Positions 31,820 to 56,312 of a DNA stretch of 64,000 nt are shown here, piece after piece. A program made the position numbers and the translations under genes. The stretch is from Desulfocapsaceae bacterium (GTDB taxonomy: Bacteria > Desulfobacterota > Desulfobulbia > Desulfobulbales > Desulfocapsaceae), in NCBI GenBank assembly GCA_028697885.1, contig JAQVER010000002.1, forward strand, positions 1 to 64,000. Direction: 5' to 3'. Position 1 is the stretch's first letter. The number at the start of each line of letters is the position of its first letter. The notes under the pieces are model-generated. The model was not told the DNA's origin, searched no databases, and was given only the letters and a program-made list of their open reading frames with translations.

Positions 31820-31895
<76 letters not shown>

Positions 31896-31903
31896 GTAAA
31901 ATT

Positions 31904-31937
31904 AAGGGTTTCAGGGTAATTCCTGAAACCCTTTTTT
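31904..31937 (+). terminator. Rho-independent terminator after tRNA-Thr
   Basis: AAGGGTTTCAGG (31904-31915) pairs perfectly with CCTGAAACCCTT (31922-31933) around a 6-base loop, followed by T residues to 31937. It may also end the integrase transcript from the other side. Confidence 0.92.
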
Positions 31938-31965
31938 GTTGCAAAAGGGACACCAAAGGGACACC

Positions 31966-32997
31966 TTATTTTCGGGACTTTCGGAGAGACGAAACCAGTG
32001 CAGCAGCGTCAACAATCCTGCTCATTTTTATTTTGGTGTAAATGGTGGTGGTCTTGATATCTTTATGGTGAAGGGACTCTTGCAGTAGGCGGAGATCTCC
32101 ACATGCTTCAAGGGTATCTGTGGCGTAAGCGTGGCGAAATTTGTGATGTGTCATTGTATAAGACAGTCCTGCCTTCCGGGAGGCTGTGGCAAGGGTTTTC
32201 TTTATGCTCAATACTGGCTTTCCTGTTTTTTTATTTTCAAAAACCCACCCTGTTTCTTTCTTTAAGGGAAACATCAATTCTCTAAATTCTTCCGGGATAG
32301 GAAGTGCTTGATTGTCGCCACCTTTCACGGTTACCGTTATTGTTCCTCGTTCCCAATTAATATTTTCCCATCGTATTTGATTGGCTGTTCCAATTCTGGC
32401 CCCAGTATTCCACATGAGATAAATTAATGCGCGTGTAAGGGGGTCAGTAATATATGCCAGGATGGCATCAACGTCTGTTGATATTGGTGCCATCGGTATT
32501 GGCCTGTGATATTTAGGGGTCTGAGGTTTAAAAGACAATGGGTCAGCATAATTGTTTTCTACCATCCAAGATATGAGTCCTTGCAGATAGTGGATATCTT
32601 TCTGATTAGCTCGTTTCTTGTCGGGGCGCATGGCGACAAAATCAGTGATGTGTGATGGTTTTATCTGGCCAGTTGTCATCTTACCGAATATTTGCATGAG
32701 GCGCGGCATTGACATTTTTACATCGATATGTGTTTTTTTTGCCCTATTTAAACCATGCCAACGTAAATACTCAGGAAGAGCGGCCTCAAGAGTGAGTGAT
32801 GTTACTTTAACCGTACTTCGTGATTTTCTGTCGAGCCCGGCAGCATGAAGAATGGCCTGTTCAAAAGTTTCAGCCTGCTCCCTCGTTCCTTCAAAATTTT
32901 TAGTTCTCTTTCCACCCTTCTTCCCATCCGGTCTCCATATTATTTTCCAAACAGCTTGTCCAGGTGTCTCTGAATGTCTGATAAATTCAATACTCAT
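31966..32997 (-). CDS. int: Tyrosine site-specific integrase of the tRNA-Thr element
   Basis: The 343-residue protein has an N-terminal arm-binding region, a SAM-like core-binding domain (about 60-160) and a catalytic domain with the first Arg in TGARIGTANQIRW, the H-x-x-R box HHKFRHAYATDTLE, and LQESLHHKDIKTTTIYTKI with the conserved His and nucleophile Tyr. All catalytic residues are present, so it may be active. It ends 70 bases from the tRNA-Thr 3' end and points toward it, the typical setting of tRNA-targeting islands. Confidence 0.93.
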   Translation of the reverse strand: MSIEFIRHSETPGQAVWKIIWRPDGKKGGKRTKNFEGTREQAETFEQAILHAAGLDRKSRSTVKVTSLTLEAALPEYLRWHGLNRAKKTHIDVKMSMPRLMQIFGKMTTGQIKPSHITDFVAMRPDKKRANQKDIHYLQGLISWMVENNYADPLSFKPQTPKYHRPIPMAPISTDVDAILAYITDPLTRALIYLMWNTGARIGTANQIRWENINWERGTITVTVKGGDNQALPIPEEFRELMFPLKKETGWVFENKKTGKPVLSIKKTLATASRKAGLSYTMTHHKFRHAYATDTLEACGDLRLLQESLHHKDIKTTTIYTKIKMSRIVDAAALVSSLRKSRK

Positions 32998-33013: not shown

Positions 33014-34177
33014 TTATAATAAAATATTCCACCGTGATTTTAAAAAGCTGCGTTCCTCTTCGGTCAAGGCAAAAGAAATAATCCCGGCGCTACTTTTATC
33101 ATCGGCAATGATAGGGCGAAAAACCAGCCAGATTTTTCTTCCATCGTTCATAGATATTACCTGCTCACCAGCAATACCTTCCTCTCTTGTTTTCCGTATG
33201 GTATTGTACACCCCTTCAATAGACGCTTTCGATGTCAGTATAGCTAAAAACTGATCTATGGTTTTTGTTTCACTTTCCGCTAAACCAAACAGTTTCAAGA
33301 AACACTCTGTTTGATATATGATGTTTCCCTGTTCGTCGCTGCAGCAGGCAGGGAATGGGGATATCAATGACGGTATCGTTGAAACGCGCCTCTTTGCATC
33401 GGCAAATTCTTTTTGCATGCTTCCGCAGTCATCAGCACGAGTCATTATGACGATCTGGTAACTATCATCACCGATTCTGATTACCTGCGAGTCAATCATG
33501 TAAAACAACTGGCCAATTTGCATATTGAAACTGACCGGTATTTTAAATTCTTGGGTCTCTTTAATCTTACAACCTTTGCACAATGTTAATTCAGATGCGG
33601 AGACGCATGTTTCACAAAGAATTTTTCCTATTGTTGACCCAGAGCAAACCATACGATGTGCTTGGTTTTGAAAAACTACTACTCCCTTGGTGTCAAGAAT
33701 TGATATAGCTGGCGGAAGGTATTCGAAAACATCCATCCAAAACCGTAGTCTTTCTTTTGTTGACGCCGCCTCTTTGGCAAACTCAATCACTTCCGACACA
33801 ATATCATGGTGGCCCTTGTCTTCTTCCTTGAAAGGCAGCGCCATGGATGCTTTATTATCCTCTTTATCCTCTTTATCCTCTTTATCCTCTTTATCCTCTT
33901 TATCCTCTTTATCCTCTTCCCCTTCGTTAAAAACCTCTTTTCCTTTGTTAAGGAAGTCAAGCAGGGAATCATAACCGCAAGCCGCTGCTATTTCTCCTTG
34001 CTTGTCAGTTCCAGCCCTGTGTTTCTTTCCTTCCTTAGATACCCTCTCTCTGACTATTGCGTTTAGGGTTTGATACGCCACCCCCACTTGATCGGCAATT
34101 TCTCTTTGGGTGAGCTTGGTTGTCTGAAGAATGTGGTGCAAAGCTGCCAGGAAATAATCATACGTGTCAACGCTCAT
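33014..34177 (-). CDS. HTH-PAS regulator, repressor-like, of the element
   Basis: The 387-residue protein starts with a lambda-repressor-like HTH (ILQTTKLTQREIADQVGVAYQTLNAIVRERV), then a low-complexity linker of repeated Lys-Glu-Asp, then a PAS domain (about 150-265; LPPAISILDTKGVVVFQNQAH, with CETC and CKGC cysteine pairs) and a second PAS-like domain (about 275-385). A strong AAGGAGG precedes the ATG. It is transcribed divergently from the AlpA-like/primase operon and lies just upstream of the integrase on the same strand, the place of the master repressor in phage-like elements. PAS domains are unusual there and suggest a small-molecule, redox or ligand signal rather than RecA-driven cleavage. 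Confidence 0.8.
   Translation of the reverse strand: MSVDTYDYFLAALHHILQTTKLTQREIADQVGVAYQTLNAIVRERVSKEGKKHRAGTDKQGEIAAACGYDSLLDFLNKGKEVFNEGEEDKEDKEDKEDKEDKEDKEDNKASMALPFKEEDKGHHDIVSEVIEFAKEAASTKERLRFWMDVFEYLPPAISILDTKGVVVFQNQAHRMVCSGSTIGKILCETCVSASELTLCKGCKIKETQEFKIPVSFNMQIGQLFYMIDSQVIRIGDDSYQIVIMTRADDCGSMQKEFADAKRRVSTIPSLISPFPACCSDEQGNIIYQTECFLKLFGLAESETKTIDQFLAILTSKASIEGVYNTIRKTREEGIAGEQVISMNDGRKIWLVFRPIIADDKSSAGIISFALTEEERSFLKSRWNILL
33861..33914. repeat. Six exact tandem copies of a 9-bp unit inside the HTH-PAS gene
   Basis: The unit TCTTTATCC (plus strand) repeats six times without error, coding for repeated Lys-Glu-Asp in the linker between HTH and PAS. The unit length is a multiple of three, so copy-number change alters linker length without a frameshift. 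Confidence 0.97.
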
Positions 34178-34440
34178 AAATCCTCCTTGATTTTAAATAA
34201 AATATAAGTGAACGGCAGAAAATAAACTGCCATCTCATTTTTATACAGATATAATCTTTATTTTACAAAAAAAATTTATAGCATCCTGACCGTTGTCTGG
34301 CAAGGGTTTTTGTATATTTGTGAATATATAATATTTATTTCTGTATAATAAGTAAAAAAATACCATTTACATGATAAGAATAAAGTCTATAATGTTGTTC
34401 TATAAGTTTAGCAGGCATTAAATATTTACTTTTATCTAAT
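34178..34440. promoter_or_regulatory. AT-rich divergent control region of the element
   Basis: This gap separates the repressor-like gene from the AlpA-like operon. It is very AT-rich and contains a TATAAT at 34344-34349 on the plus strand and other -10-like boxes. It should hold both promoters and the operators; no clear operator palindrome was recognised. Confidence 0.45.
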
Positions 34441-34833
34441 ATGGAAACTTGTTGTTTGTTAATCAGAGAGAAATGGCAATTTTGCTGGAATGTACTTATC
34501 ACCCCTAAGTCTATGGCAAGTATCGACTCAGCGGGAATTGGTCCGAAAGGCAGGATCTCTGTTGGACGTAAGGTGGCCTACCCCGTGGCTTCGCTTATAA
34601 CATGGCTTGAATTGCGTTCCAAGCAGGCACCGGGGGCGTGTATGACCGCTCACAATAAAATGGCTTCCGCTGAACAGATCGTCCGCTTGGGAGTCGCCAA
34701 CATTATACAAAATTATCACAACAATTTTCTGCATAAACTTCAAAGGTTACACGCGATTTCTTTTTTGCCCTTTATTGTTTCAGGTGTGGCCTGGCTTATT
34801 ATAATCCTTGTTTGTTTGAGAATGACGATATGA
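34441..34833 (+). CDS. Small AlpA/excisionase-like DNA-binding protein with C-terminal hydrophobic tail
   Basis: The 130-residue frame contains a winged-helix-type stretch GIGPKGRISVGRKVAYPVASLITWLELRSK that resembles AlpA/excisionase-like regulators (GP..-IG.-V.Y....-WL pattern). The C-terminus is hydrophobic (FLPFIVSGVAWLIIILVCL) and may be a membrane segment, which is odd for such proteins. The start is uncertain: neither ATG 34441 nor the in-frame ATG 34513 has a good ribosome site. It is the first gene rightward from the divergent control region and overlaps the next gene by ATGA. Confidence 0.55.
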   Translation: METCCLLIREKWQFCWNVLITPKSMASIDSAGIGPKGRISVGRKVAYPVASLITWLELRSKQAPGACMTAHNKMASAEQIVRLGVANIIQNYHNNFLHKLQRLHAISFLPFIVSGVAWLIIILVCLRMTI

Positions 34834-35036
34834 CGACCGCTAAAAATACATCCAATACCCTTGAAAACAAGCCCGCACAAGGAAAGGCCCGTCTTGTCAT
34901 GGTTATTGAGCATGATCCCGGCCAGAAAGTTGAGGAGACAGCACTCATTCGTGTAACGAGAGAACGTGGCCACCAGATTATCTGTATTAAGATGAGCGAC
35001 GATAATAGCACTATGAAAGAAAATCAGAATGATTGA
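34830..35036 (+). CDS. Small hypothetical protein of the element
   Basis: A 68-residue polar protein I do not recognise. It begins in the ATGA overlap with the AlpA-like gene and overlaps the primase-helicase start by 8 bases, so it is translated as part of a tightly packed operon. It contains a short hydrophobic strand (KARLVMVIEHDPG) and a basic/acidic C-terminal half. Confidence 0.5.
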   Translation: MTTAKNTSNTLENKPAQGKARLVMVIEHDPGQKVEETALIRVTRERGHQIICIKMSDDNSTMKENQND

Positions 35037-37098
35037 TCTCGGGCAAGCACCTCCACAACAGGAGGAACGATATCATATACCTGACACGCCGACCGATTCG
35101 GTTGAGGCGTTCCGTAATATCCTGGCTGATCATGGTATATGCCCGGACTGCATTGATACCTCTGGCAAGCTGGTACGGGTGGATATCGATAGGGGTGATA
35201 AGGCCGGATGGTATGTTTTTTTCCTGGGTGACGTGTCTGCTGGCTCGTTTGGCAACTGGCGAACAGGGCTTAAAGAAAAATGGTGCAGCGTTGATCGTAA
35301 GGAAATGTCGGACGCTGAAAGCGAAAGGTATGCCCAGATTGTCGCGGAGGCCAAACGTCAACGGGAAGCACTGAAAGCCGAGCTGCAGGGCGCGGCCAAG
35401 GTGAAGGCAAATGAAATATGGAATCAGGCGCAAGACACCATTGCCCATGCCTATCTATCAAGAAAATTTGTTCAGGCCCATGGATTGAAACAGTCGCGCG
35501 GCGATTTGATTGTACCGCTGCGGGATGAAAAAGGCGAGATTCATAACCTGCAGTTTATCAAACCGACCGGAGAAAAGAAGTTTCTCTTTGGTGGCCGGGT
35601 AGAGGGATTGTCTCACACGATTAAAGGGAATAGTGAACTTGCAATCTGTGAAGGCTACGCGACCGGGGCCACGATCCGTCAAGCGACAGGGGCTACAATA
35701 ATTTGCGCTTTTAACCGGGTGAATTTGCTCCCTGTGGCAAAGATTGTTCGTGATAATAGTCCTGATGCCAGTATCACACTTTGCGCCGATAATGACCGTT
35801 TTACCGCTGGCAATCCGGGTTTATCTGATGCCACCAAAGCGGCAAAAGCGATAAAGGCCAGGGTTATTTACCCGGTCTTTGACGAGCTGCCCGGTGGTGA
35901 TGATCCAGAGAAGAAATTGACCGACTTCAACGATCTGGCCGCGCTTGGTGGTTTTGATCTGGTGAAGAAGCAAGCAATGATTGACGACCGGCCACAATGG
36001 CAGAAAGGAAGGTTGCCGCCGCTGACCATGGAAGGAACGCGGGTGGCTGGAAGACTCTTGGCCCGTCCGGCACCGCTGGAATTTCTATTCAAGTTCAACG
36101 ATCAAGGCTTGATCCCTCGTGGTGTGGTCGGGGTAATAGCGGCAACCGGTGGAACGGGCAAGACTTTCTTTCTACTCTCGCTGGCCATGGCTGGCGCTGG
36201 CGGTGGCAACTTCGGGCCGATCCATGCGCCAAGGCCATTAAAGACGCTGGTACTTGTGGGCGAGGATACCCAGGACGAGCTTGAACGCAGGTTGTGGGAT
36301 ATCGGTAGAGGCAAGTTTCCTGAAATGCTTCACGCGGCTTCTGTGTATGGCGAGGTCGGGCCATTGATGCGGCTGGAAGGATCGAATCCAACATTGGCAG
36401 ATGCGTGGTATTGGCTGGATAAAACATTATCAAATTACGATAATCTGGACTTGCTTATCATTGATCCCAAGAGCCGGTTTTATGGCCTGGACGAGAACAA
36501 CAATGACCATGCAACTCAATGGATTCAGTCGCTTGAGATATTGGCGAAGAAGCATGATATCACCATTCTGTTTTCCAGTCATACGGGCAAGCAAAGTTCC
36601 GGTGAGATCAATCAAAATATGATCCGGGGTGGTTCTGCCATTGTTGATGGTTGTCGGTGGCAAGCCGGAATGATCAGAATGGATCAGGCCACGGCAGACA
36701 GGCTGGGAATAGAAAACGCTCGGGATTATGTCATGTTCGATGCGCCCAAGAGCAACTATTCACCAGATTTGCCAAGTGTGATGTATTTCAAGCGATCAGA
36801 AAGCGGGGTGTTGGAATATTGTGAGCCCGGCAACGAGATTCGTGAAGAAATGGCCGATGCGTTGCTGGAAATCCTGACAAAAGACACCATAAGATACTCG
36901 AAGAGAGATCTGGAAAAGGAGAAAGTTGGAGTGGAAGTTGCCAGAAATATGAAAGAGATCTTCCCCGGGTTTAGGAGAAATGACGACATGGGAAGGACAA
37001 TTGACCAACTTATCAAGGATGGAAAATTGTTTGAGGAAAAGGTCAAAACAAAAGGAGTAGATAAACCAAAAACAGTGTTAATACCCCAGCCATTTTAA
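35029..37098 (+). CDS. Primase-helicase (TOPRIM plus RepA-like AAA ATPase)
   Basis: The 689-residue protein should start replication of the element. Residues ~150-300 form a TOPRIM-like primase region (ELAICEGYATGATIRQATG, ITLCADNDRF, LTDFNDLA). Residues ~330-580 form a RepA/RecA-type helicase with Walker A AATGGTGKTFFLLSL, LVGEDTQDELERRLW, Walker B LLIIDPKSRFYG and FSSHTGKQSSGE. The C-terminus (580-689) looks like a winged-helix DNA-binding tail. The same primase-RepA layout is found in satellites and phage-like plasmids. The iteron-like repeats directly downstream support an origin there. Confidence 0.86.
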   Translation: MIDLGQAPPQQEERYHIPDTPTDSVEAFRNILADHGICPDCIDTSGKLVRVDIDRGDKAGWYVFFLGDVSAGSFGNWRTGLKEKWCSVDRKEMSDAESERYAQIVAEAKRQREALKAELQGAAKVKANEIWNQAQDTIAHAYLSRKFVQAHGLKQSRGDLIVPLRDEKGEIHNLQFIKPTGEKKFLFGGRVEGLSHTIKGNSELAICEGYATGATIRQATGATIICAFNRVNLLPVAKIVRDNSPDASITLCADNDRFTAGNPGLSDATKAAKAIKARVIYPVFDELPGGDDPEKKLTDFNDLAALGGFDLVKKQAMIDDRPQWQKGRLPPLTMEGTRVAGRLLARPAPLEFLFKFNDQGLIPRGVVGVIAATGGTGKTFFLLSLAMAGAGGGNFGPIHAPRPLKTLVLVGEDTQDELERRLWDIGRGKFPEMLHAASVYGEVGPLMRLEGSNPTLADAWYWLDKTLSNYDNLDLLIIDPKSRFYGLDENNNDHATQWIQSLEILAKKHDITILFSSHTGKQSSGEINQNMIRGGSAIVDGCRWQAGMIRMDQATADRLGIENARDYVMFDAPKSNYSPDLPSVMYFKRSESGVLEYCEPGNEIREEMADALLEILTKDTIRYSKRDLEKEKVGVEVARNMKEIFPGFRRNDDMGRTIDQLIKDGKLFEEKVKTKGVDKPKTVLIPQPF

Positions 37099-37716: not shown

Positions 37717-37837
37717 ATCTAAAAACATTTCCCTGGAGAAGAAAAACAAAACCAATAAGTCCCGGTTAATGAGTAAACTTCATTTGAAGGTTCATGACGA
37801 TAAGCCTCACGAGGAACTAAAGAGGAGGGTGATATGA
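37709..37837 (+). CDS. Very small basic protein, coupled to terminase small subunit
   Basis: A 42-codon frame starts inside the end of the preceding gene (8-base overlap) and ends in an ATGA overlap with the terminase start. The product is rich in Lys and His (MNKSKNISLEKKNKTNKSRL at the N-terminus). The double coupling suggests that it is translated, if only to deliver ribosomes to the terminase start, which also has AGGAGGGTGAT inside this frame. No family is recognised. Confidence 0.35.
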   Translation: MNKSKNISLEKKNKTNKSRLMSKLHLKVHDDKPHEELKRRVI

Positions 37838-38283
37838 GCAAAATAGATAACCCCTGGCATGAAAAGTTGACCGAGAAGCAACGGCGCTTCTGTGAGGCAT
37901 ACAGCACCAACGGCGGTAATGCCCTGAGAGCGGCGGCGTCTGCTGGTTATTCTAAGCCAAACCAGCAAGGTTCTCAAAACTTGGAAAAACTTGCAATTCA
38001 GGGAGCCATTGAACGATTGCGGCAGGAAACCACTAGCACTGCTATCATGACCAGGGAACAACGGCAAGAGATGTGGTCTGATATTATAAGGGATAAGACT
38101 AAGCCTGATATGGTCCGGTTGCGGGCTTCTGAATTGCTGGGGAAATCACAGGGTGATTTTATTGATCGGAAAGAACTATCAGGGCCAAAGGGTGGGCCGA
38201 TTAAATCTATTGCGATCGAGTTAATCAGCGCTGATCAAGCGCGCCGAATAGCACATGAAATTTTAGAATCACCAGGTAGATAG
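37834..38283 (+). CDS. terS: Phage terminase small subunit
   Basis: The 149-residue protein has the Terminase_2 pattern LTEKQRRFCEAYSTNGGNALRAA and AGYSKPNQQGSQNLEKL (DNA-binding helix-turn-helix), a central helical oligomerisation part and a short C-terminal tail. It selects DNA for packaging. No large subunit, portal or capsid gene follows, so it can act only with a helper phage's large subunit, as in phage satellites. AGGAGG precedes the ATG. Confidence 0.88.
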   Translation: MSKIDNPWHEKLTEKQRRFCEAYSTNGGNALRAAASAGYSKPNQQGSQNLEKLAIQGAIERLRQETTSTAIMTREQRQEMWSDIIRDKTKPDMVRLRASELLGKSQGDFIDRKELSGPKGGPIKSIAIELISADQARRIAHEILESPGR

Positions 38284-42857: not shown

Positions 42858-43451
42858 TTACAGCTCCAGTTTCATGTATGCCTCGCGGATCTCCTCGGGC
42901 TGGATGCAAAGGTAGTCCAGAGTCTGTTTCTGGCTTGAATGGTTGAACATGACCATCAGCTCGGCGATGGAGGTATTGAGCTGGATCCGTTGGTGGTAGC
43001 CGAAGGTCTTGCGCAGGGTGTGGCTACCATAATTACCCTTGAGGTTAATGGTAGCACACCAGGACTTGACCAGGCGGTTGATCGAGGGCACGGTCAGGGC
43101 CTGGCCACGCTGGCTGAAGAAGATTGGATCGTTGTTAGCAATGGGGACTGAGGCCAGGAGTTGCTGGATAGCGGTGGAGGCTGATTTGTTCAAGGTGATG
43201 CGCCGCTGTTTGCCGGTCTTTTTTTCCTTAAGGGTGAGTTCGTCGCCTGCCTGGCAGTGACGCACTTGACCGGCGGTGATCTGGAGTAGATCCGAGGCGC
43301 GCAGGTTGGTGTTGATCCCCAGAACGAACAGACAGAGGTTGCGCGGATTGTCGTCCAGTATTTTTTTGATGGAGCGGATGTCGCGTAGCTCTCGGATCGG
43401 TTCGACCTTGATTGAGGAATTTTTTTTTGGATGATTAGGATTTTTGCTCAC
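42858..43451 (-). CDS. Short tyrosine recombinase, catalytic domain only
   Basis: The 197-residue protein has LGINTNLRASDLLQI (first Arg), the lysine hairpin EKKTGKQRRITL, HTLRKTFGYHQR (H-x-x-R) and FNHSSQKQTLDYLCI (His and Tyr nucleophile), so the catalytic set is complete, but it lacks the N-terminal core-binding domain of full-length integrases. It starts at GTG 43451 with GAGG 7 bases before it. Short recombinases of this kind are a known group (FimB-like size). It sits at the left edge of the defence genes and may mobilise or invert nearby DNA. Confidence 0.85.
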   Translation of the reverse strand: MSKNPNHPKKNSSIKVEPIRELRDIRSIKKILDDNPRNLCLFVLGINTNLRASDLLQITAGQVRHCQAGDELTLKEKKTGKQRRITLNKSASTAIQQLLASVPIANNDPIFFSQRGQALTVPSINRLVKSWCATINLKGNYGSHTLRKTFGYHQRIQLNTSIAELMVMFNHSSQKQTLDYLCIQPEEIREAYMKLEL

Positions 43452-43944: not shown

Positions 43945-45456
43945 ATGGGGAATAAGATACTAATATGTTGGTTAGGAATGACAGATCTGAGAGCGGCCTC
44001 TGGATCAACAGACGTTGGTTTAGGGCCAGTGGCCCAAGCTGTTGCTGAACAAGCTTACAGAGAGGTGGTGCTTCTCAATAATTGGAAGAAAAACACAGCT
44101 GAAGACTATGTTGTTTGGCTCAAAGAAAAGACTCCTACGCAGATAACTCTCCAACATATTTCTCTCTCAGGACCAACAAACTTCGGCGAGATCTATCAAG
44201 CCGCCACAGCTATCATTTCCGAAAAAATAAAAGAACACGGTCAGGATGCCAATCTTGTCTTTCATCTGAGCCCTGGAACCCCTGCCATGGCCGCAGTCTG
44301 GATTCTCCTAGCCAAAACTCGTTTCCGCGCCGAGTTGATTGAATCATCCAAAGAGCATGGTGTCCGCACGGCCTCTGTGCCTTTTGATATCTCGGCCGAC
44401 TTTATCCCTGACTTGTTTCGGAGGCCAGATAAAACCCTTGAGCGCCTGGCCGCTGGGTTGCCTGATGCCGCACCAGAGTTTGACGACATCATCCATCGCA
44501 GCGAGGTGATGCAGAGGGTGATTCTCAAGGCGCGGCGCATTGCCCCCCGTTCCATCCCTGTCCTTATCGAAGGCGAATCCGGCACCGGCAAGGAGTTGTT
44601 CGCCCGTGCCATTCATGACGCCAGTCCGCGAAAGGACAAGCCCTTTGTGGCCATTAACTGCGGGGCCATCCCCCCAGAACTGGTCGAGTCGGAACTATTT
44701 GGCTATGAAAAAGGGGCCTTCACAGGCGCCAATACCGCTAGGGTCGGCCATTTTGAAGCAGCCCACACCGGCACTATCTTTCTCGATGAGATCGGCGAGC
44801 TACCGAAAGAGATGCAGGTCAAGCTGCTCCGCACCCTGCAGGAAGGCGAGGTCAAGCGCATAGGCGCAACTGCGCCCAGGAAGGTCGACGTAAGAATTGT
44901 TGCGGCTACCAATAGAAATCTTATTGAAGAGGTGGCGGCCTGCTCCTTTCGGGAAGATCTCTTCTACCGGCTGGCCGTGGCGGTGATCAAGCTACCGCCC
45001 CTGCGGGAACGGGAAGGAGATATCAGCCTACTGGTTGATCAATTCCTTGACCGGATCAACCAGGAAAGCAGTAATGAACCTGGCTACAAGCAAAAGAAAA
45101 TTTCTGCTTTCGCAAGAAATCTTCTCCTTTTGCACCCTTGGCCAGGCAATGTCCGCGAGTTGCAGAATACCTTGACCAGGGCAGCGGTCTGGTCGCTGGA
45201 TGAAGAGCTTGGCGTGGAGGATATCCGTGAGGCCCTGCTCCCGGTTCCCGCGCCCGGCAAGGGAAAGGACGCGATTCTCAACCAGCCGCTCACCCAGGGA
45301 GTCGATCTGCCGGAGATCATGAAAACCGTGGCGGCTCATTACCTTGAACGGGCGCTTGAAAAAAATAACGGCAACAAGACGAAAACCGCTAAAACACTGG
45401 GACTTCCAAGCTATCAGACCCTGACTAACTGGCTCAAGAAATACGGCCTCGAATAA
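43945..45456 (+). CDS. RtcR-like sigma-54 activator with CARF-type sensor domain
   Basis: The 503-residue protein has three parts. Residues 1-165 resemble the CARF-type sensor of RtcR: an N-terminal Rossmann start (KILICWLGMTDLRA) and the ligand loop HLSPGTPAMAAVWILLA with H107 to P113, followed by AELIESSKEHG. Residues ~175-410 are the AAA+ domain: Walker A GESGTGKE (210-217), GAFTGA intact at 257-262, FLDEIGELP (Walker B) and REDLFYRLAV. The C-terminus is a Fis-type HTH (NNGNKTKTAKTLGLPSYQTL). Known RtcR activates RNA-repair genes from a sigma-54 promoter on sensing RNA ends. Here no rtcA or rtcB is present; the target is the restriction/defence operon, whose sigma-54 promoter starts two bases after this stop codon. 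Confidence 0.88.
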   Translation: MGNKILICWLGMTDLRAASGSTDVGLGPVAQAVAEQAYREVVLLNNWKKNTAEDYVVWLKEKTPTQITLQHISLSGPTNFGEIYQAATAIISEKIKEHGQDANLVFHLSPGTPAMAAVWILLAKTRFRAELIESSKEHGVRTASVPFDISADFIPDLFRRPDKTLERLAAGLPDAAPEFDDIIHRSEVMQRVILKARRIAPRSIPVLIEGESGTGKELFARAIHDASPRKDKPFVAINCGAIPPELVESELFGYEKGAFTGANTARVGHFEAAHTGTIFLDEIGELPKEMQVKLLRTLQEGEVKRIGATAPRKVDVRIVAATNRNLIEEVAACSFREDLFYRLAVAVIKLPPLREREGDISLLVDQFLDRINQESSNEPGYKQKKISAFARNLLLLHPWPGNVRELQNTLTRAAVWSLDEELGVEDIREALLPVPAPGKGKDAILNQPLTQGVDLPEIMKTVAAHYLERALEKNNGNKTKTAKTLGLPSYQTLTNWLKKYGLE

Positions 45457-45458
45457 GT

Positions 45459-45474
45459 TGGCACGGTCATTGCT
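45459..45474 (+). promoter_or_regulatory. Consensus-perfect sigma-54 promoter of the defence operon
   Basis: TGGCACGGTCATTGCT matches the sigma-54 consensus TGGCACG-N4-TTGCW at every fixed position, with GG (45460-45461) and GC (45472-45473) 10 bases apart. Transcription should start near 45485, about 26 bases before the hsdR ATG. It faces the defence genes and directly follows the sigma-54 activator gene. Confidence 0.93.
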
Positions 45475-45510
45475 TTATAGGCAATCAAATTATCACTTTT
45501 GGATGAAACG

Positions 45511-47802
45511 ATGAGTCGAAACGAAAAACAGACATGCAGGGAATTGATTGAACCTGCCCTCAACAGTGCCGGCTGGGAATGGGATTCTCAAGTCATCATC
45601 GGTCCTGGTCGGGTCAACATTACCGGCGAGGCCATGTACGATGAGACGCAGGCAATCATCGCTGATTATGTCTTGCGATATCGTGGCATCCCTCTGGTTG
45701 TCCTGGAGGCCAAGGCCGAGGCGGCCAGTGCCGCCGATGGTATGCAGCAGGGTTCTCGTTACGCCCAGCGTCTGGATATTCGTTTTTCCCTTGCCTCCAA
45801 CGGCACCGACTGGATTCTTACCGATAACTATTCCGGCACCTTTGAAACCATCGCAGTCGCCCCTACCCCGGAAAACATTCTCACCCGCCACGGCGTTTTT
45901 ATGGACTGGGACCGCTGGGGAGATACTTTTGCGGCCGGATACCATGTTGACCAGGTGAGCCGCAAGAAGGTCCGTCCCTATCAGGATATGGCCATCCATA
46001 AAACCCTGTGGCAATTTGCTCAGGGGGATGATCGGGTGCTTTTGCTCATGGCCACCGGCACCGGCAAGACCTTTACCGTGTTCCAGCTCATCTGGAAGAT
46101 GATGAATAGCGACGCGCTCAAGCGCCAGCATGTTCTCTTTCTGACTGACCGCAACTCCCTCAAGGATCAGGCTTATCGAGCCTTTGCCGCTTTTTCAGCC
46201 AACGAGCGTGTCACCGTTGATAAGGATACTGTGGCCAAGGGGTAGCACGAGGTTGGCAAAATTTTCTTTGCCAATTACCAGAGCCTGGATGAAGAGCTGA
46301 ACGGTAAAAAGGTCTTCGCCCATTACGATCCTGACTTTTTTGACCTGGTCATCATAGATGAGTGCCATCGTTCCGGCTTTGGCGACTGGTTCGGTGTACT
46401 GGAGCATTTCAGTTCCGCCCTGCAACTGGGCCTTACTGCTACACCCCGTGAACTGGAAGAGAGCCGCCGCGTCTTGACCAATGAGGAAAAACGCCGTGAC
46501 ACCTACGAATATTTTGGCGAGCCGGTCTATACTTATAGTCTTAAACAGGCCATCGAGGATGGTTTCCTGGTCCCTTATCTGCTGGAGGAACGAATCACCA
46601 ACCTTGATGAAGAAGGTTATACCAGCGCGGACGGCAAGCATTACACCACCGCCAATTTCGAGCGCGACATCCGTATGCCGGACCGCACCAAGGCTATTGC
46701 CGAGGATCTCTGGTCCATTCTGGGTAAATATGGTCTGCGGGATGAAAAAAGCATTATCTTTTGTGTGGATGACACCCATGCCGCCTTTATGGCGGCCGAG
46801 TTACGGCGCCTCGCAGGAGACAATGACTATGCCGGCCGTATTACTCGTTCTGAGCGTAACAGCCACCAGCTGGAGCGCAACTTTGCCATTGTAGGTCCAA
46901 GCAAACCACGCATCGCCGTAACCGTGGACCTGCTGACCACCGGTTTCGATGCCCCGGATGTCAAAAATATCGTCTTTGTCCGGCCGCTCAAGAGCGCCAT
47001 TCTCTACAAGCAGATGAAGGGGCGCGGCACCCGTCTATGTGACGACATCAATAAACGTTATTTTACCATTTTCGATTATTCTGGGGCCAGTCTGCTTGAG
47101 GATACCGAGTTTGACGGCCATCCGGCTAACAAGCAGAAAGGGACTCAGCCCAAAGCCAAGCCAAGGAAGAAAACCGACGAGCCGACGGTCAAGCCGGTAG
47201 GCGAAGGCATCTCCGTGATCATCTCCGATACCAACCGCTATGTGTGCCTGGCGGATGGCCGTAAAATTCCTTTTGAGGAGTACACTGAGCAGTCGCGGGA
47301 GTTTATCCTTGATGTCTCCACAAAGTCCATTGACGAACTGCTCGCCATCTGGATCGACAAGAACAGCCGCAAGGAGCTGCGCGAAGAACTGCGCGACCAT
47401 GATATTTATCCTTCCGCCTTCCGCCATTACCTCGATCTGCCGAAAACCGATGACGTGGACATCCTGGCCAAGATCGGCTTCAATCTGGTGCGGGTGCCAT
47501 CGCGTGACGATCGCGCCACCCGTTTGCTGGTGGAGGACGAACTTTGGCTGCTGAATCAGCTCGGAGAAAAAGCCATTTCCCCGGATGATCGTATCAAGTT
47601 GAGATTCTGGGATACCGCCCTTGACCATTACCGGCTGTTCGGCATCGATGATCTGGAGCAGGCCCGCACCTACAGCGCCCCCCAGTTTGTCGAGCAGTTC
47701 GGTAGCTTTCAGACCCTGACCAGTCGCTATGGCGGCCCGCAACTTTTAAAAAACGATCTGGAGGCGGTGAAGCGCCACCTCTATATTCCCATGACCGCAT
47801 AA
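45511..47802 (+). pseudogene. hsdR: Type I restriction endonuclease subunit HsdR, interrupted by an in-frame TAG
   Basis: HsdR is the ATP-dependent translocase and nuclease of type I restriction. The frame runs 763 codons to 47802 but has one TAG at 46243-46245 (codon 245); on both sides the same frame is open and reads as HsdR. N-terminal part: the nuclease domain with IPLVVLEAKAEA and then Walker A ATGTGKT (181-187). After the stop: FANYQSLDEEL, the DECH box (283-286), LTATPREL and LTTGFDAPDVKNIVF with QMKGRGTRL. ATG 45511 has GGA 7 bases upstream; a TTG at 45499 is in frame. A nonsense mutation, sequencing error or suppressed stop are all possible. Without read-through the helicase is split and restriction should be lost. 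Confidence 0.88.
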
Positions 47803-47818
47803 GCAAGGAAAACACTCC

Positions 47819-49291
47819 ATGACCAATAAAACCGACCATCGTCGCCAGGAAGTCCAGCAGATCGTAAAAAATGCCTGCGACCAGCTTAATCAGGAGGGCG
47901 TTGATGCCCGCAACTACGTGGAGCAGCTTGCCTGGCTCTTCTTCCTGAAGGCCTTTGACGAGGCTGAAACCCGACGCGAGGAAGAGGCCGCCTTTGACGA
48001 CAAGGAGTATGAACGTCGCCTCTCTGGCGAGTATGCGTGGTCAAACTGGGCCAAGGATACCGACCACGCCGACCAGATGCTGGAGTTTGTCGATGGCAAG
48101 CTGTGGATCAAACTCACCAGCCCTGATCCTAAAAAAGGTATGGGGGATGAGCCGCTGGCCCAGCGTTTCCGCCGGATCTTTGACAATGTCCGCAATTACT
48201 GCCGTCGTGGCACAACCTTTGCCAGAGTGGTCCAGCAGGTGGACAAACTCCATTTCTCCAGCGAGACCGATGTCATCGTGCTCTCGGAAATTTATGAAGA
48301 CCTGCTGAAACGGGTGGCCGCTGATTCGGCAGGCTATGCCGGGGAGTTTTATACCCAGCGCCACATCATCCGCGCCATGGTTGAGGTGGTGCAGCCTAAA
48401 TCCGGCAACCGGGTCTATGACCCTTGTTTCGGCACCGCCGGCTTCCTCGGTGAATCTGCCGATTACATCCGGCGCAACAACACCTTGAGCGGTCCGCAGC
48501 TCGACGCCCTGCAGCAGAAAACCTTTTTCGGCATGGAGATCAAGCCGCTCACCTATCTGCTCGGCACCATGAACATGATCCTGCACGGTATCGAAGGGGC
48601 CAATCTGGAGTTGACCAATACCCTGGAGGTGCACAGCCAGAATGTTGGCGAGAAGGCCAAATATGACGTGATCCTCTCCAATCCGCCCTACGGCGGCAAG
48701 ATGGCTCAGGAGATGCAGACAAATTTCCGGGTGCACTCCGGTGCCACCGAGTGTCTCTTTGTCCAGCACATTATGGCCAACCTGGCCAAGGGCGGCCGTG
48801 CTGGGGTGGTAATTCCTGAAGGGGTACTGTTCAGGGGCGGGCCGGACCAGAAGGTTCGTAAGGAGCTTTTGGAACAGTTCAACGTTCATACCATCCTCTC
48901 CCTGCCCGCCGGCTGCTTCCTGCCCTATACCGGGGTCAAGACCAATGTCATCTTTTTCGACCGACCTAAGGATGGCAGTGCAACAAAAAACGTCTGGTTC
49001 TATGAACTAACCAACGATGGTTTTGAATTGAAATCGACCAGGAAGCCCCTGGAGGGCAACCAGATTCCCGATTTTCTGGCCAAGTGGCAGATGCGAGAGG
49101 AGGACGAAAATTCTTGGTCCATACCCATCGAAGAGATCATCGAACGGGGCTATGACCTATCGGCCAAGAACCCGAACCGCAAAGACGACTATGAACATCG
49201 CCCGGCCCTGGAGCTGGTGCAGTCTATCAAGGCCAAGGAAGAGAGGATAATGGATCTGCTGAACGAGCTGGAAGGGATTTTGGAGAAATAA
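47819..49291 (+). CDS. hsdM: Type I restriction-modification methylase subunit HsdM
   Basis: N6-adenine methyltransferase of the type I complex. The 490-residue protein has the N-terminal HsdM helical domain (YVEQLAWLFFLKAFDE), GEFYTQRHIIRAMVE, the AdoMet motif I YDPCFGTAGFLGE (about 200), and the catalytic NPPY at 288-291 in VILSNPPYGG. The end contains GYDLSAKNPNR and a coiled tail that contacts HsdS. It begins 16 bases after hsdR with AAGGAAAAC upstream; hsdS starts 2 bases after its stop. Confidence 0.95.
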   Translation: MTNKTDHRRQEVQQIVKNACDQLNQEGVDARNYVEQLAWLFFLKAFDEAETRREEEAAFDDKEYERRLSGEYAWSNWAKDTDHADQMLEFVDGKLWIKLTSPDPKKGMGDEPLAQRFRRIFDNVRNYCRRGTTFARVVQQVDKLHFSSETDVIVLSEIYEDLLKRVAADSAGYAGEFYTQRHIIRAMVEVVQPKSGNRVYDPCFGTAGFLGESADYIRRNNTLSGPQLDALQQKTFFGMEIKPLTYLLGTMNMILHGIEGANLELTNTLEVHSQNVGEKAKYDVILSNPPYGGKMAQEMQTNFRVHSGATECLFVQHIMANLAKGGRAGVVIPEGVLFRGGPDQKVRKELLEQFNVHTILSLPAGCFLPYTGVKTNVIFFDRPKDGSATKNVWFYELTNDGFELKSTRKPLEGNQIPDFLAKWQMREEDENSWSIPIEEIIERGYDLSAKNPNRKDDYEHRPALELVQSIKAKEERIMDLLNELEGILEK

Positions 49292-49293
49292 AC

Positions 49294-50454
49294 ATGCATA
49301 CAACCACACCCAAAGGCTGGGAAACCAAATCCCTTGAAAATCTTTTAGATATCCAAAATGGTTATGCCTTTGCATCCGACAGATTTTCAAATGATAGAGG
49401 TATGCCGCTTATTCGCATACGTGACCTGAAAGGTGGTTATGGAACTGTGGTCAGATTTGATGGCGAATTTGATGACAATTTCGTTGTTAAATCAGGCGAT
49501 CTTTTAATCGGGATGGATGGTGAGTTCCGTTGCTATAAATGGCAAGGCCCTGATGCTTTACTGAATCAGCGAGTATGTCGGCTTATTGATTTTAGTGATG
49601 AGCTGCTTCCTGATTTTGTTCTTTTTGGGATTAATCCACATTTAAAAGTCATCGAAAAAAATACACCTTTTGTGACGGTACGACATCTATCTGCCAAAAA
49701 AATTAAATCGATTGATTTTTCGTATCCACCTCTCGATGAACAGCGCCGCATCGTCGCCCGCATCAAGGAGTGCATGGAACGAGTGGAGGAGCTTGAGGGC
49801 CTTAGGGCGGAGGCCATGCGGGAGCGTGATTATCTCCTGGAATCTCTGATTGAGGCAGAATATCAGGAGGCTGAGGGAAAAAATGTAATGCTCACTGATA
49901 TTTGCGCAATCACGTCCAAACTTGTTGACCCGCGAGAGCAGCAATATGTCGATCTGATACATATCGGGGGGGGCAACATCGAGGCCAAGACCAGCAAGCT
50001 ATTGGAGTTGAAAACCGCTCGAGAGGAAAAACTCAAATCAAGTAAATTCGTCTTTGATAACTCGATGGTGCTTTACAATAAAATCCGGCCTTATCTGATG
50101 AAGGTCGCTCGGCCTGATTTTTCAGGCCTTTGCAGCGCCGATATGTACCCGTTGCTTCCAGACCCTGAAAAGTTAACCAGAGATTATTTGTTCTATCTGC
50201 TTTTATCGCGGAATTTTACGGATTATGCAATTGCAGGCTCGAACCGAGCTGGTATGCCAAAAGTGAATCGTAATCATCTGTTTGCATACAAATTCACTTT
50301 GCCATCAATCGAAAAACAACAACGGATTACCGAGACATTGGATGTTGCTGTCTCGGCAGTGGAAGAGCTGCGAGCAGATATGACCCTGAGCTCCTCAGAA
50401 ACCAATGCCCTGCGCGAATCCATTCTCCGCAAAGCCTTTGCCGGAGAACTATAG
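49294..50454 (+). CDS. hsdS: Type I restriction-modification specificity subunit HsdS
   Basis: Recognises the bipartite DNA target. The 386-residue protein has two target-recognition domains: TRD1 (about 5-150, GWETKSLENLLDIQNGYAF, ending YPPLDEQRRIV), a central coiled-coil helix (150-195), TRD2 (about 200-335, ending FTLPSIEKQQRITE) and a C-terminal helix with ESILRKAFAGEL. Both halves end in the conserved P-x-x-EQ-x-x-I pattern, so it is full length. It is 4 bases before the next start. Confidence 0.93.
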   Translation: MHTTTPKGWETKSLENLLDIQNGYAFASDRFSNDRGMPLIRIRDLKGGYGTVVRFDGEFDDNFVVKSGDLLIGMDGEFRCYKWQGPDALLNQRVCRLIDFSDELLPDFVLFGINPHLKVIEKNTPFVTVRHLSAKKIKSIDFSYPPLDEQRRIVARIKECMERVEELEGLRAEAMRERDYLLESLIEAEYQEAEGKNVMLTDICAITSKLVDPREQQYVDLIHIGGGNIEAKTSKLLELKTAREEKLKSSKFVFDNSMVLYNKIRPYLMKVARPDFSGLCSADMYPLLPDPEKLTRDYLFYLLLSRNFTDYAIAGSNRAGMPKVNRNHLFAYKFTLPSIEKQQRITETLDVAVSAVEELRADMTLSSSETNALRESILRKAFAGEL

Positions 50455-50458
50455 GCCA

Positions 50459-53400
50459 ATGGCTGAGCTCTCTTCCACCACACCAGCCGGGAAACAGCTG
50501 GACATCCTGCGCGGCAATAGCCCGCTGGCGGCCCACGAATTTCTACAGGTGCTGTCAGCATTCATCTTCCTGCGCTGGGCAGACTTCCAGGAGGCGGAAC
50601 TGGAGGCCGTTGCCGCCTTTGATGACACCCCCTATGAACCGATACTTCCACCCTTTCTGCACTGGCGCACCTGGCACCAGTTGCCTGCTGCCGAGCTCTA
50701 TCTTTTCCTGACTGAGCGTTTGCCCGCATCATTACAACAGCTCCAAAATTTCCGGCACAATCCCCTGGCCACCCATCTGCATCGTCTGGCTGACCCCTTA
50801 CACAAACTGGCAGGACTAAGGCCCGAGCAGATAGGCTCTCTTATCCTATGGCTGGCCGAGCAACCCTTTGAGACCCCGTCTGATCGGCGTCAGTTACTCG
50901 CCACCTTTGACGGGCTCCTCGAAGCCGGGCAAGACAAACACTCCGGCGAGTACCGGACCCCGCGCCATATTGCCGGGCTTATGGTAGCCCTGGCCGCTCC
51001 TGTGCAGGGAGAGAGTATCTATGACCCTTGCTTTGGCACGGCAGGCCTGTTGACCATGGCCATTGACCAGGTCTTGCAGAAGGCAACGCAGAACAATGGC
51101 GGTTTTGCTGTGGCGGGTTTGGATATTTCCGGCATCGAGATAAATACGTCTGCCTATCTCATCGGCCTGACCCGGCTGGCGCTGGCTGGCAGTGGCGATC
51201 CGCAACTGGAGCTAGGCAACAGCCTAGAGCGTACCCCCTCGGGTAATCTTCAGCAGGACGGCTTTGACCTTGTGTTGGCCAACCCGCCCTGGGGATGGAC
51301 CGCCAGGCTGGATGAGCGCTATGGTCTGGAGCATTATCCCGTTATGACCAAGGATGCCACCGGACTCTTTTTGCAGCATGCTCTGGCCAATCTGCGTGCC
51401 AATGGCCGGGCTGTCATCGCTGTCCCCAATGGCGTCCTTTTCAGAAGCGGAGCGGAATATAAATTACGGCGCTGGCTGCTGGATCACCACAACGTCGAGG
51501 CGGTTATCGCCCTGCCGGAAAGGGCCTTTATGCCAACCACGGCTATCAAGTCAAGCCTTCTGGTATTGCGACGGGGTAACAGTACCCGCAAGGTCCGTAT
51601 GGTGGATGCTGAACCCTTTTTCGAGAAAGGCAAGGGGAGACAACCGGCAACTATTTCAGAGGAGGGATCCTTTAAGCTGGCCGAGGCGATCCGAAACGTG
51701 GAACCATCTGAGTTCTGCTGGGATGTGGAGCTCAAGGTGCTGGCAGAATCAAAATTCGACCTTACCCCGCGCCGCCGTGACCAGAGCGGGCTTGATACGA
51801 CCCTTGAGGCCCTGCGCCCATCAGTCGAAGTGGTAACTCTCAAGGATTGCTGCAGGATCGCCACCAGTCGTCAAATCCCCGTAGCTGATCTTGTGGACGA
51901 ACGGCCAGAAGTCTCAAGCCCCTTGGAGCAACAACCGCTTTTTAAAGAGAACACAAAGAACGTAGAGCAGCAGAGCCTTTCCCCGTCTGCCGAGCCAATC
52001 CCCTATATCCGCATCAGGGACATCCACAAAGGCCAGGCCGGTAAAGGCAGTTCCTGGTTGTCAGCGGCGACCGCCCAGAAGGTGGAACCTGGCTGGAAAC
52101 TACGGGCCGGGGATGTGCTGTTTTCCAAGTCAGGGACCATCGGTAAGATCGGAGTTGTCCGTAACGGCGCAATCGGCGCTATTGCGGCAAGCGGGCTCTA
52201 TGTCCTGCGGGCGGATAACAACCGCCTTGACCCTCATTATCTTGCCGCCTATCTCGACAGCAGCGAGTGCCGGGCCTGGCTCCAGGACCGGGCAACCGGC
52301 GCGGTCATCAGCCATCTAGGCCGGCCGGTTATTTACAATACCCCTATACCGCTTCCGCCGTTACAAATACAACAGCGGGTTGCTGCCGCCTGGCGGGAAC
52401 ACGGGGTGGATGCTCTGACCTACTTAGCCCGGCTGCTGACCGATGGAGAGGAGGATCCCATTGTTGCTTGGCTTGAGAAGGAGCTAAAAACATTCCCGGC
52501 TGATCCGGAATCCCTGACCGATCCTCTGGCTCTTGGCCCCCTCGATGAACTTGCCGACCGCGTCCGGCCTCTGCGCAATGAGGCGGCCCACGGCAGGCAT
52601 GGTGACAATACCCTGCTGCCCTGGATTTTATCATTCAACGAGGCCGTGTCCCCCTTGCGTGGTGTCAACGATATACCCCATGGGCCGGGGCTGCTGAGCG
52701 TCCTGCAGGAATCTGGGCTCGGCCTTTTGGGTGCAAAAGATGCAGTAAGTGGACACCTGCCCAGCGAGGAGAAGGCCCGGAAGTTGACCGATATCGTTTC
52801 CAAATGGCTGAGTCGGGCGATTACCGTCCTGTTTCATGATGTGCAGCTAGTTTTCAGTGCGGAAACTTCCACTTTTATATCTGGCGAGTTTCAGGAATTT
52901 GACCTGAAGGTGCAAAACGGCGGCCCTCTGCCATTACGAAAGGTGATGATTGTTTTTGAACCGGAGTGGGGGCAGGGCAACATCAAATATCTGGCAGAGA
53001 ATGGTGTCGAAACCATAGGACTGAAGGCGGATCCACCCAAGACAGCAGGACCGTTCACGCTGGTGGCCCGCTGGAGCGCCCTGGCCCTTGACGGCCAGCA
53101 AGTGGATGGCGCACGGGAGATCGCCTTTGATGTATTACCTGCAGCTCAGCCGAAAGAAGACGTGGTCCAGGATCTCGGGGCCAGTCCCTATGTCTGTGGT
53201 GATCCGATCCGGCCGGAGCGCAATGATGTGTTTTTTGGCCGGGAAGAGCTGCTCGATCAGATCCGCCGCCAGATTGTCCAGAGTGGCAATGTTGTCTTGC
53301 TGGAGGGTAATCGGCGGGCCGGGAAATCCTCCATCCTTCGTCACTTGGAGGGTGTCGGACCTATACAAGGCTGGCTGGGTGTGTACTGCAGCCTGCAGGG

Positions 53401-54418
53401 CGCCGAGGGCAGTCAGGATGGTGTAGGAGTACCTACGGCGGCGGTTTTTCGGGAAATCGCTATTAGCATTGCCAAGGCGATGGTTCCACTGGGTATCGAG
53501 GTGCCCCTGCCCGATGGCAGCACCCTGCCCCCTGGGAAGAAGATCGGTATTGCCAGGGCTTGCCGCCAGGGGATCAGCGAGGAACATTCATTTGCTGATT
53601 TCCGAGATTATGCGGAAATGGCCCTGGAAACGATGGAAGAGCGGCAGCTTGGCATCCTGCTGATGCTGGATGAGTTTGACAAGCTGCAGGAAGGCATTGA
53701 CAATGGGGTGACCTCGCCGCAGGTTCCTGAAAACATCCGCTTTCTGGTGCAGACTTACCCGGGTTTTTCCGCCATCCTGACCGGTTCGCGACGGTTGAAG
53801 CGTTTGCGGGATGAATACTGGTCCGCGCTCTTTGGGCTTGGCACCAGGTTCGGTGTGACTTCGCTTTCTCTGGAGGCTGCTAGACATCTGGTGACGGAAC
53901 CGGTCAAGGGCCGTCTGGTCTATTCACGAGAGGCCGCTGAATGGGCCATCGTGCTGACAAATCGTCAGCCTTTTCTGCTCCAGAGCCTCTGTAACCGCAT
54001 CTTTGATATGGCTGCCCAGCTGAAACACCGCTCCATCACCCTGGAAATGGTCAATGAAGCAGCGGCCCTGCTTGCCGATGACAATGAACATTTTCGCAGC
54101 CTATGGACCTACTCCGGTTCCGACCGCCGCCGGTTTATTCTGGGACTAATCAATAAAGAGACGGACGGGGCTGACCCTTTGCGTTTCGGCGTCCTGCGGG
54201 AGCTGCTTTCAACCCATGGAGTGGAGGTTGAGGACGATACCCTGAGTGATGATTTGGAGTTTCTGAGGGAACTGGAACTGGTTGATCTGGTCGGTGAGGG
54301 TGAAAGTGGCCATTACGCCCTGGCCATCCCGCTCATGGGCAAATGGATCGGCCGGCAACATGATTTTGAGGTGTTGAAAAATAAAGCACGGATGGAAACG
54401 GAGGATAACCATGGTTGA
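50459..54418 (+). CDS. Fused adenine methylase / specificity domain / AAA ATPase protein
   Basis: A 1319-residue fusion. Residues 1-450 are an HsdM-like methylase: FLQVLSAFIFLRWADF, GEYRTPRHIAGLMVA, motif I YDPCFGTAGLL (about 189) and NPPW at 275-278. Residues ~455-650 are one HsdS-type target-recognition domain (YIRIRDIHKG, AGDVLFSKSGTIGKIGVV, LPPLQIQQRVAAAW). A helical and beta-rich linker follows (650-915; GEFQEFDLKVQNGGPLPLRK). The C-terminal part is a STAND-like ATPase (NDVFFGREELL, Walker A GNRRAGKSS at 950, LLMLDEFDKL as Walker B near 1070, SLEAARHLV) and a wHTH tail. ATG 50459 is chosen; the upstream frame overlaps hsdS. I know no named system with this exact fusion. Confidence 0.85.
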   Translation: MAELSSTTPAGKQLDILRGNSPLAAHEFLQVLSAFIFLRWADFQEAELEAVAAFDDTPYEPILPPFLHWRTWHQLPAAELYLFLTERLPASLQQLQNFRHNPLATHLHRLADPLHKLAGLRPEQIGSLILWLAEQPFETPSDRRQLLATFDGLLEAGQDKHSGEYRTPRHIAGLMVALAAPVQGESIYDPCFGTAGLLTMAIDQVLQKATQNNGGFAVAGLDISGIEINTSAYLIGLTRLALAGSGDPQLELGNSLERTPSGNLQQDGFDLVLANPPWGWTARLDERYGLEHYPVMTKDATGLFLQHALANLRANGRAVIAVPNGVLFRSGAEYKLRRWLLDHHNVEAVIALPERAFMPTTAIKSSLLVLRRGNSTRKVRMVDAEPFFEKGKGRQPATISEEGSFKLAEAIRNVEPSEFCWDVELKVLAESKFDLTPRRRDQSGLDTTLEALRPSVEVVTLKDCCRIATSRQIPVADLVDERPEVSSPLEQQPLFKENTKNVEQQSLSPSAEPIPYIRIRDIHKGQAGKGSSWLSAATAQKVEPGWKLRAGDVLFSKSGTIGKIGVVRNGAIGAIAASGLYVLRADNNRLDPHYLAAYLDSSECRAWLQDRATGAVISHLGRPVIYNTPIPLPPLQIQQRVAAAWREHGVDALTYLARLLTDGEEDPIVAWLEKELKTFPADPESLTDPLALGPLDELADRVRPLRNEAAHGRHGDNTLLPWILSFNEAVSPLRGVNDIPHGPGLLSVLQESGLGLLGAKDAVSGHLPSEEKARKLTDIVSKWLSRAITVLFHDVQLVFSAETSTFISGEFQEFDLKVQNGGPLPLRKVMIVFEPEWGQGNIKYLAENGVETIGLKADPPKTAGPFTLVARWSALALDGQQVDGAREIAFDVLPAAQPKEDVVQDLGASPYVCGDPIRPERNDVFFGREELLDQIRRQIVQSGNVVLLEGNRRAGKSSILRHLEGVGPIQGWLGVYCSLQGAEGSQDGVGVPTAAVFREIAISIAKAMVPLGIEVPLPDGSTLPPGKKIGIARACRQGISEEHSFADFRDYAEMALETMEERQLGILLMLDEFDKLQEGIDNGVTSPQVPENIRFLVQTYPGFSAILTGSRRLKRLRDEYWSALFGLGTRFGVTSLSLEAARHLVTEPVKGRLVYSREAAEWAIVLTNRQPFLLQSLCNRIFDMAAQLKHRSITLEMVNEAAALLADDNEHFRSLWTYSGSDRRRFILGLINKETDGADPLRFGVLRELLSTHGVEVEDDTLSDDLEFLRELELVDLVGEGESGHYALAIPLMGKWIGRQHDFEVLKNKARMETEDNHG

Positions 54419-56009: not shown

Positions 56010-56052
56010 AGGTGGGAGGAAGCGAAGCGCTGTACCTATTCAATTCATTAAA

Positions 56053-56301
56053 GTGACGAAGGAGAGCGTTTGCTCCTTTCTTGGAGAGGTCAAGAATCAT
56101 GTTGATATTGCCAAGGCTGGCTATTTCGTGAATGAGCTTGAAAAGCTCCTGGCCCAGACAAAGAAGGAAGTGCACTACGATCTTTATGTGGACACTGATG
56201 AAAACTCCAGCCACTACGGATTAGGCAAAACCGTCAAAGGCCTTAGCCGTTTCCCGGGCAAAATGAATCAAGAAAGGATAATATCCCTTAAAAGAGGGTA
56301 A
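56053..56301 (+). CDS. Small hypothetical protein between the ATPase and the giant helicase
   Basis: An 82-residue frame from GTG 56053 with no ribosome site nearby; the frame is open further upstream into the ATPase end but offers no better start. Content is ordinary protein-like: FVNELEKLLAQTKKEVHYDL then YVDTDENSSHYGLGKTVKGL. I do not recognise it. It lies 43 bases after the ATPase and 11 before the giant gene, so it is probably a real member of the operon, or the 3' part of a decayed gene. Confidence 0.45.
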   Translation: MTKESVCSFLGEVKNHVDIAKAGYFVNELEKLLAQTKKEVHYDLYVDTDENSSHYGLGKTVKGLSRFPGKMNQERIISLKRG

Positions 56302-56312
56302 TAAAGAGGGCA

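Follow-up and report, generated by a model that had tools for sequence, protein, structure and literature searches.

A candidate HTH-PAS-PAS master repressor in a tRNA-Thr-integrated, satellite-like defence island of a Desulfocapsaceae bacterium

Introduction

Islands of the SaPI/PICI type show the layout int-stl / str-xis-pri-terS and have a typical size of about 15 kb. Among regulators with PAS domains, the tandem PAS repressor PpsR/CrtJ is chromosomal and carries its HTH at the C-terminus, and NreB, a histidine kinase which is not DNA-binding, has four cysteines within a PAS domain with the spacing C-x2-C-x11-C-x2-C. The SaPI/PICI repressor Stl answers helper-phage proteins (PMC6092414, PMC9638917), and the global repressor of the Gram-negative AlpA PICIs, such as EcCICFT073, is called unclear (PMC6092414). 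The nearest case known to us in which a PAS-HTH protein governs a phage is VqmA of phage VP882, which senses DPO; it is a regulator of the life cycle of a mobile element, acts as an activator and carries its HTH C-terminal to the PAS domain (PMC8284805). A literature search whose scope took in a minority of the subscription journals found no description of a PAS-containing satellite repressor.

The locus described here is in the window, the 64,000-nucleotide stretch analysed (GenBank assembly GCA_028697885.1, contig JAQVER010000002.1, positions 1 to 64,000), and contains a gene encoding an HTH-linker-PAS1-PAS2 regulator. It shares with the Stl loci of SaPI/PICI the gene order, the divergent regulation, an integrase gene on the repressor side, a primase and TerS, and its gene order and strands match the PICI layout given in PMC6092414, but its regulator has two PAS domains after the HTH and about 49.7 kb separate the att sites. 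With the Gram-negative AlpA PICIs it shares the integrase, AlpA-like and primase genes, and it shows in addition a repressor candidate. The regulator resembles VqmA in combining PAS and HTH domains, but the HTH comes first and there are two PAS domains. It resembles NreB in motif, by the four cysteines within a PAS domain, with a middle spacing of x8 instead, and PpsR/CrtJ by the tandem PAS domains (4hh2 has rank 2 in the fold search). Judged from the sequence, a repressor with sensor domains in this satellite-like island would be a variant of the known Stl/CI-type repressor function within a PICI-type layout.

Results

The island and its gene order

The 3' end of the tRNA-Thr gene recurs at contig position 81579-81637 (G000:C93), beyond the window, with 97% identity over 60 columns, and an island of about 49.7 kb enclosing the regulator gene is therefore delimited (Table 1). 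The integrase is at one end of this island, the att direct repeats are at a specific site, and the regulator, primase and TerS genes are in the conserved PICI order. Since the 49.7 kb between the repeats do not agree with the PICI size, the island is named satellite-like rather than classified as a PICI. A satellite of only about 6 kb was rejected, because a second att copy was not found in the window and the partner is at 81579. No PHROG match to capsid, portal, tail or large terminase was found among the 17 ORFs scanned, and an ordinary prophage repressor was rejected on the absence of structural genes in these ORFs.

Table 1. Position of the regulator, its island and related loci (window coordinates unless a locus is named).
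Feature	Position	Strand	Basis or remark
tRNA-Thr (CGT), integration site	31820..31895	(+)	ARAGORN, Rfam
Left att repeat (tRNA-Thr 3' end)	31847-31906		direct repeat
Tandem AAAGGGACACC x2, possible integrase arm-type sites	31944..31965	.	TRF
Tyrosine integrase	31966..32997	(-)	Pfam Phage_integrase E 3.2e-24; phrog_1 E 3.4e-43
HTH-linker-PAS1-PAS2 regulator, candidate master repressor	33014..34177	(-)	387 aa; ORF, Pfam/PHROG, structure models
Codons of C188-x2-C191-x8-C200-x2-C203, PAS1	33569..33616	(-)	translation
Six exact GAGGATAAA units coding Glu-Asp-Lys, in codon phase	33863..33916	(-)	pattern count
Expected operator region, A+T-rich, divergent intergenic, 263 bp	34178..34440	.	ORF calls; promoter and operator scans
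AlpA-like small regulator/excisionase candidate	34441..34833	(+)	similarity to L084:3294-3521
Toprim-AAA primase/helicase	35029..37098	(+)	AAA_25 E 9.6e-38, Toprim_3 9.6e-10; phrog_2249 DNA primase 5e-71
Terminase small subunit (TerS)	37834..38283	(+)	Terminase_2 E 1.5e-15; phrog_51 4.1e-23
Anti-phage cargo: CARF-sigma54 regulator, type I R-M genes, PDC-S37-like helicase	43945..62609	(+)	PADLOC
G207 PAS1 relative	L064:10122-10823		~490 bp past tRNA-Gln
Stand-alone HTH paralogue, without PAS	L037:9138-9425 (G000:C164)		95 aa

Just outside the right repeat there is an integrase remnant, 64% identical to the window integrase over 59 residues, which probably represents a second, older insertion. 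A short integrase ORF of 197 aa, comprising the catalytic part, is inside the island at 42858-43451, so that the island may be composite. The tRNA-Thr gene is a hot spot, with further repeats or elements at the same tRNA in other genomes of the genus; no HTH-PAS gene was seen in the other listed tRNA-Thr islands of the genus, judged by eye from the first 110 residues of each ORF. GGGTGCC-like pairs, also recognised by eye, adjoin the tRNA-Gln gene in the related island of genome G207.

The regulator gene contains 387 codons and a stop, and its ATG is preceded by AGGAGG, which upholds the ORF of the initial annotation. The integrase frame starts 16 bp past the regulator stop, on the same strand and likewise with AGGAGG, and for these reasons both genes probably form one operon, with joint transcription expected from this arrangement. 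The ORF layout also confirms the divergent intergenic stretch that had been named as the presumed binding region. Promoter-like matches at 34366-34393 (+) and 34356-34328 (-) are candidates from a sequence scan, in which such matches were no commoner than in shuffles of the scanned region (13 versus 12.5 expected), and the operator search of the divergent region gave A+T-rich repeats and nothing further. The first divergent ORF is 42% identical, across 59 aa (pairwise E 3e-18), to a 75-aa ORF of genome G087, which adjoins the primase of a tRNA-Thr-linked element. Neither of these two ORFs matched Pfam, and the name AlpA is presumed from the position and by analogy with such neighbourhoods.

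Domain organisation of the regulator

The N-terminal HTH claimed for this protein is backed by a five-helix domain at the N-terminus of the structure model, by matches to Pfam below the cut-off (HTH_24 E 0.0039 and HTH_3 E 0.027), and by weak matches to PHROG repressor/regulator families (2.5e-4 and 6.4e-4); the scores are weak, yet they are consistent with an HTH. A search with the N-terminal 87 aa matched one of the 257 class genomes, its own, at two places. The second place is an HTH-only paralogue, 53-55% identical to the head and a further argument for the HTH, on a contig that also contains an integrase-like ORF, a group-II-intron-type reverse transcriptase and an HU-like gene, all named by eye.

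Between the HTH and PAS1 there is a repeat array, in which TRF counts 7.1 copies of a 9-mer in any phase (33855-33918, 64 bp, 100% identical). Its score of 128 is the highest of the six arrays of the window. The six exact in-frame units reported before (GAGGATAAA) are real, and the array is far above chance expectation. The four-unit pattern GARGAYAAR x4 is present in one of the 93 family genomes, its own. Because the array is so far beyond chance and the four-unit pattern is unique in the family genomes, slippage is a fair guess. The Glu-Asp-Lys linker would most likely be a flexible spacer of mutable length. The further proposal of the initial annotation, a length-variable linker that tunes the switch, finds no support: the data contain a single allele, from one assembly, and the closest relative is without the repeat.

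PAS2 matched Pfam PAS_9 with 21.1-23.1 bits, under a cut-off of 27 that is a detection limit and not a property of the fold, and its model superimposes on solved PAS domains with VIA-align Z up to 11.8 (107 residues, rmsd 3.0). PAS1 alone gave no PAS match in Pfam; against a profile built from four PAS domains of chromosomal proteins, which were themselves picked by similarity to the regulator, it reached 29.8 bits, with 8.9 bits for the best of 4000 shuffles. Its model matches the CitA PAS with Z 12.6 (rmsd 2.4, 103 residues). The first model, from a 4-row alignment, was poor in PAS1 (pLDDT under 50); the second, from an 11-row alignment, has a mean pLDDT of 72.5, and in it both PAS domains group with solved PAS structures. 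Both domains show in the models the two strands, helices and three strands of the PAS fold. The claim of two PAS-like domains after the HTH thus holds: despite weak homology scores, both folds are supported by the model comparisons and the shuffle test. In the comparison with viral models the top match carries the annotation of a phage histidine kinase, and the sequence search of solved structures gave only implausible matches (E 0.24 or worse). Pfam found no S24 peptidase at the C-terminus, where the PAS domains are located instead, so that SOS cleavage is not expected; a cleavable CI/LexA-type repressor was ruled out on this absence.

The cysteine pairs noted earlier, CETC and CKGC, are present in PAS1, in a segment that comes after the first two strands and before the last three, and this loop is the least certain part of the 11-row model (pLDDT under 50). 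NreB offers the precedent of a four-cysteine PAS domain with an O2-labile [4Fe-4S] cluster (PMC4601167, PMC8774646), a small number of PAS domains are said to carry such a cysteine motif (PMC10468136), and a PAS domain of WalK binds zinc (PMC6624279). By this analogy, the PAS1 site is possibly a metal or Fe-S/redox sensor, and zinc would be an equal alternative to Fe-S. From the modelled fold and the cysteines, sensing via the PAS domains is plausible.

Relatives of the regulator

The full protein found no relatives in the genome contigs and viral contigs of the relative search, and tblastn at E 0.1 found none in phages and plasmids; within the family, six of the 93 genomes, its own included, gave matches at E 0.001. 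The PAS1 profile matched 2 of 257 order genomes at E 1e-4 (its own and G207) and 2 of 395 phylum genomes, the second weakly (E 8.8e-5). PAS1 and PAS2 together matched 24 of 252 class genomes at E 0.01, its own included, mostly in long multi-domain frames. The only close PAS1 relative found is the G207 gene, with 39% identity over 140 aa. An alignment of the regulator and this relative recovered one locus in the genome contigs, the G207 record CAIPYE010000015.1 itself, and none in the viral contigs.

The G207 relative shows a recurrence of the four cysteines as C-x2-C-x10-C-x3-C, has an HTH of a different class, and lacks both the second PAS domain and the linker repeat. The 44-base end of the tRNA-Gln recurs exactly 1757 bp further on, with the relative in between. 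The region L064:9587-12310 contains two tandem, related element remnants at this tRNA-Gln. Both remnants contain an HTH(-PAS) gene, ahead of which an in-frame TAA occurs at a similar place. The adjacent remnant carries the second HTH copy, with pN 0.12 and pS 0.74 over 69 codons, which indicates past selection on the HTH head. In both copies the listed TTG start is closely preceded by in-frame stops, so that these genes may be decaying.

Four chromosomal PAS proteins (L004, L005, L048 and L008) share two or three of the PAS1 cysteine positions. The profile of four PAS domains used above scores the G207 protein at 8.1 bits, within the shuffle range, and this failure to recognise the G207 PAS1 counts against a simple common PAS1 class. 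In two genomes of the same genus, G075 and G079, a conserved hydrolase gene is the neighbour of a gene for an HTH-PAS-PAS protein of 378 aa that lacks the cysteines. Since these HTH-PAS-PAS genes are apparently not in an element, the HTH-PAS-PAS architecture alone does not imply a repressor.

Discussion

Proposed role of the regulator

The regulator is proposed, with middling confidence, to be the master repressor, equipped with a PAS sensor, of the tRNA-Thr-integrated, satellite-like defence island. The element repressor-like character suggested by the initial annotation is strengthened by the integrase partner, the divergent AlpA-like, primase and TerS genes, the att repeats 49.7 kb apart and the relative in a tRNA island. 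In the mechanism envisaged, for which we infer DNA binding, repression, cofactor and signal alike, a PAS-mediated dimer would bind 34178-34440, silence the rightward excision and replication genes and set its own level and that of the integrase. Release would occur when the cysteine site of PAS1 is altered, by loss of metal, damage to Fe-S or oxidation of thiols, or when a PAS ligand changes, and excision and replication would then follow a chemical cue. PAS2 would probably relay the signal or dimerise, and the PAS domains would stand in for the helper-phage or SOS input at the stl position. A narrower version is tentative: the master repressor would be a metal- or Fe-S-dependent PAS sensor, redox or oxygen would set excision and replication, and PAS sensors with different HTH heads would be present in several tRNA islands.

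The TerS, primase and AlpA-like neighbours suggest a phage-dependent satellite and would also suit an Stl-like repressor in which the PAS domains are only dimerisation or docking surfaces and a helper-phage protein lifts the repression, as in SaPI Stl. Phage proteins do lift Stl repressors (PMC6092414, PMC9638917), and PAS domains dimerise regulators too, as in VqmA (PMC8284805). This explanation is nevertheless doubtful: it gives no role to the cysteines that PAS1 retains in both relatives, and there is no known helper phage. The large cargo, together with the same architecture beside the hydrolase gene in two genomes of the genus, would fit a captured host-type HTH-PAS-PAS regulator which controls cargo or host genes and not the excision of the element, but the operonic position with the integrase, the divergent AlpA-like and primase genes and a second HTH-PAS gene within another tRNA island make it unlikely. 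Still less probable is that a PAS signal switches the regulator on to activate the AlpA-like operon or to act in a dual manner. This reading has models in VqmA of VP882, a PAS-HTH phage regulator which is an activator (PMC8284805), and in AlpA, which activates in the switch of the Gram-negative PICI EcCICFT073 (PMC6092414); however, the interval between the integrase and AlpA-like genes has no other repressor gene, and the regulator occupies the place of stl.

The proposed master repressor is a concrete candidate with a built-in sensor for Gram-negative PICIs, whose global repressor is called unclear in PMC6092414. The island may heed a chemical signal, for example oxygen or metal, and not only DNA damage or a helper phage. 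If this is true, the chemistry of the cell would bear on the release of an entire defence island, and the redox/oxygen state would join SOS and helper phage as a third trigger.

Cargo of the island

Between TerS and the defence cargo, the ORF at 38509-42063 encodes a 1184-aa protein with carboxypeptidase-regulatory and InlB-repeat-like domains, for which no PHROG match was found. The ORF at 43945-45456 encodes a CARF-AAA-HTH regulator (RtcR_PspF2, 677 bits) immediately before the type I R-M genes, so that a CARF sensor and sigma-54 module precedes the restriction genes. Two adjacent ORFs, 45499-46245 and 46474-47802, match positions 11-235 and 326-557 of one 807-position type I restriction-enzyme profile, and hsdR therefore looks broken or misassembled. 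The helicase is PDC-S37/Hhe-like, and further cargo of the island includes a WYL regulator, a PDC-S26-like gene and ZacA-ZacB-ZacC. The last set is complete and is inside the same island at L082:4948-11260 (G000:C93:68948-75260), preceded by genes encoding UvrD-like and PD-(D/E)XK-like proteins.
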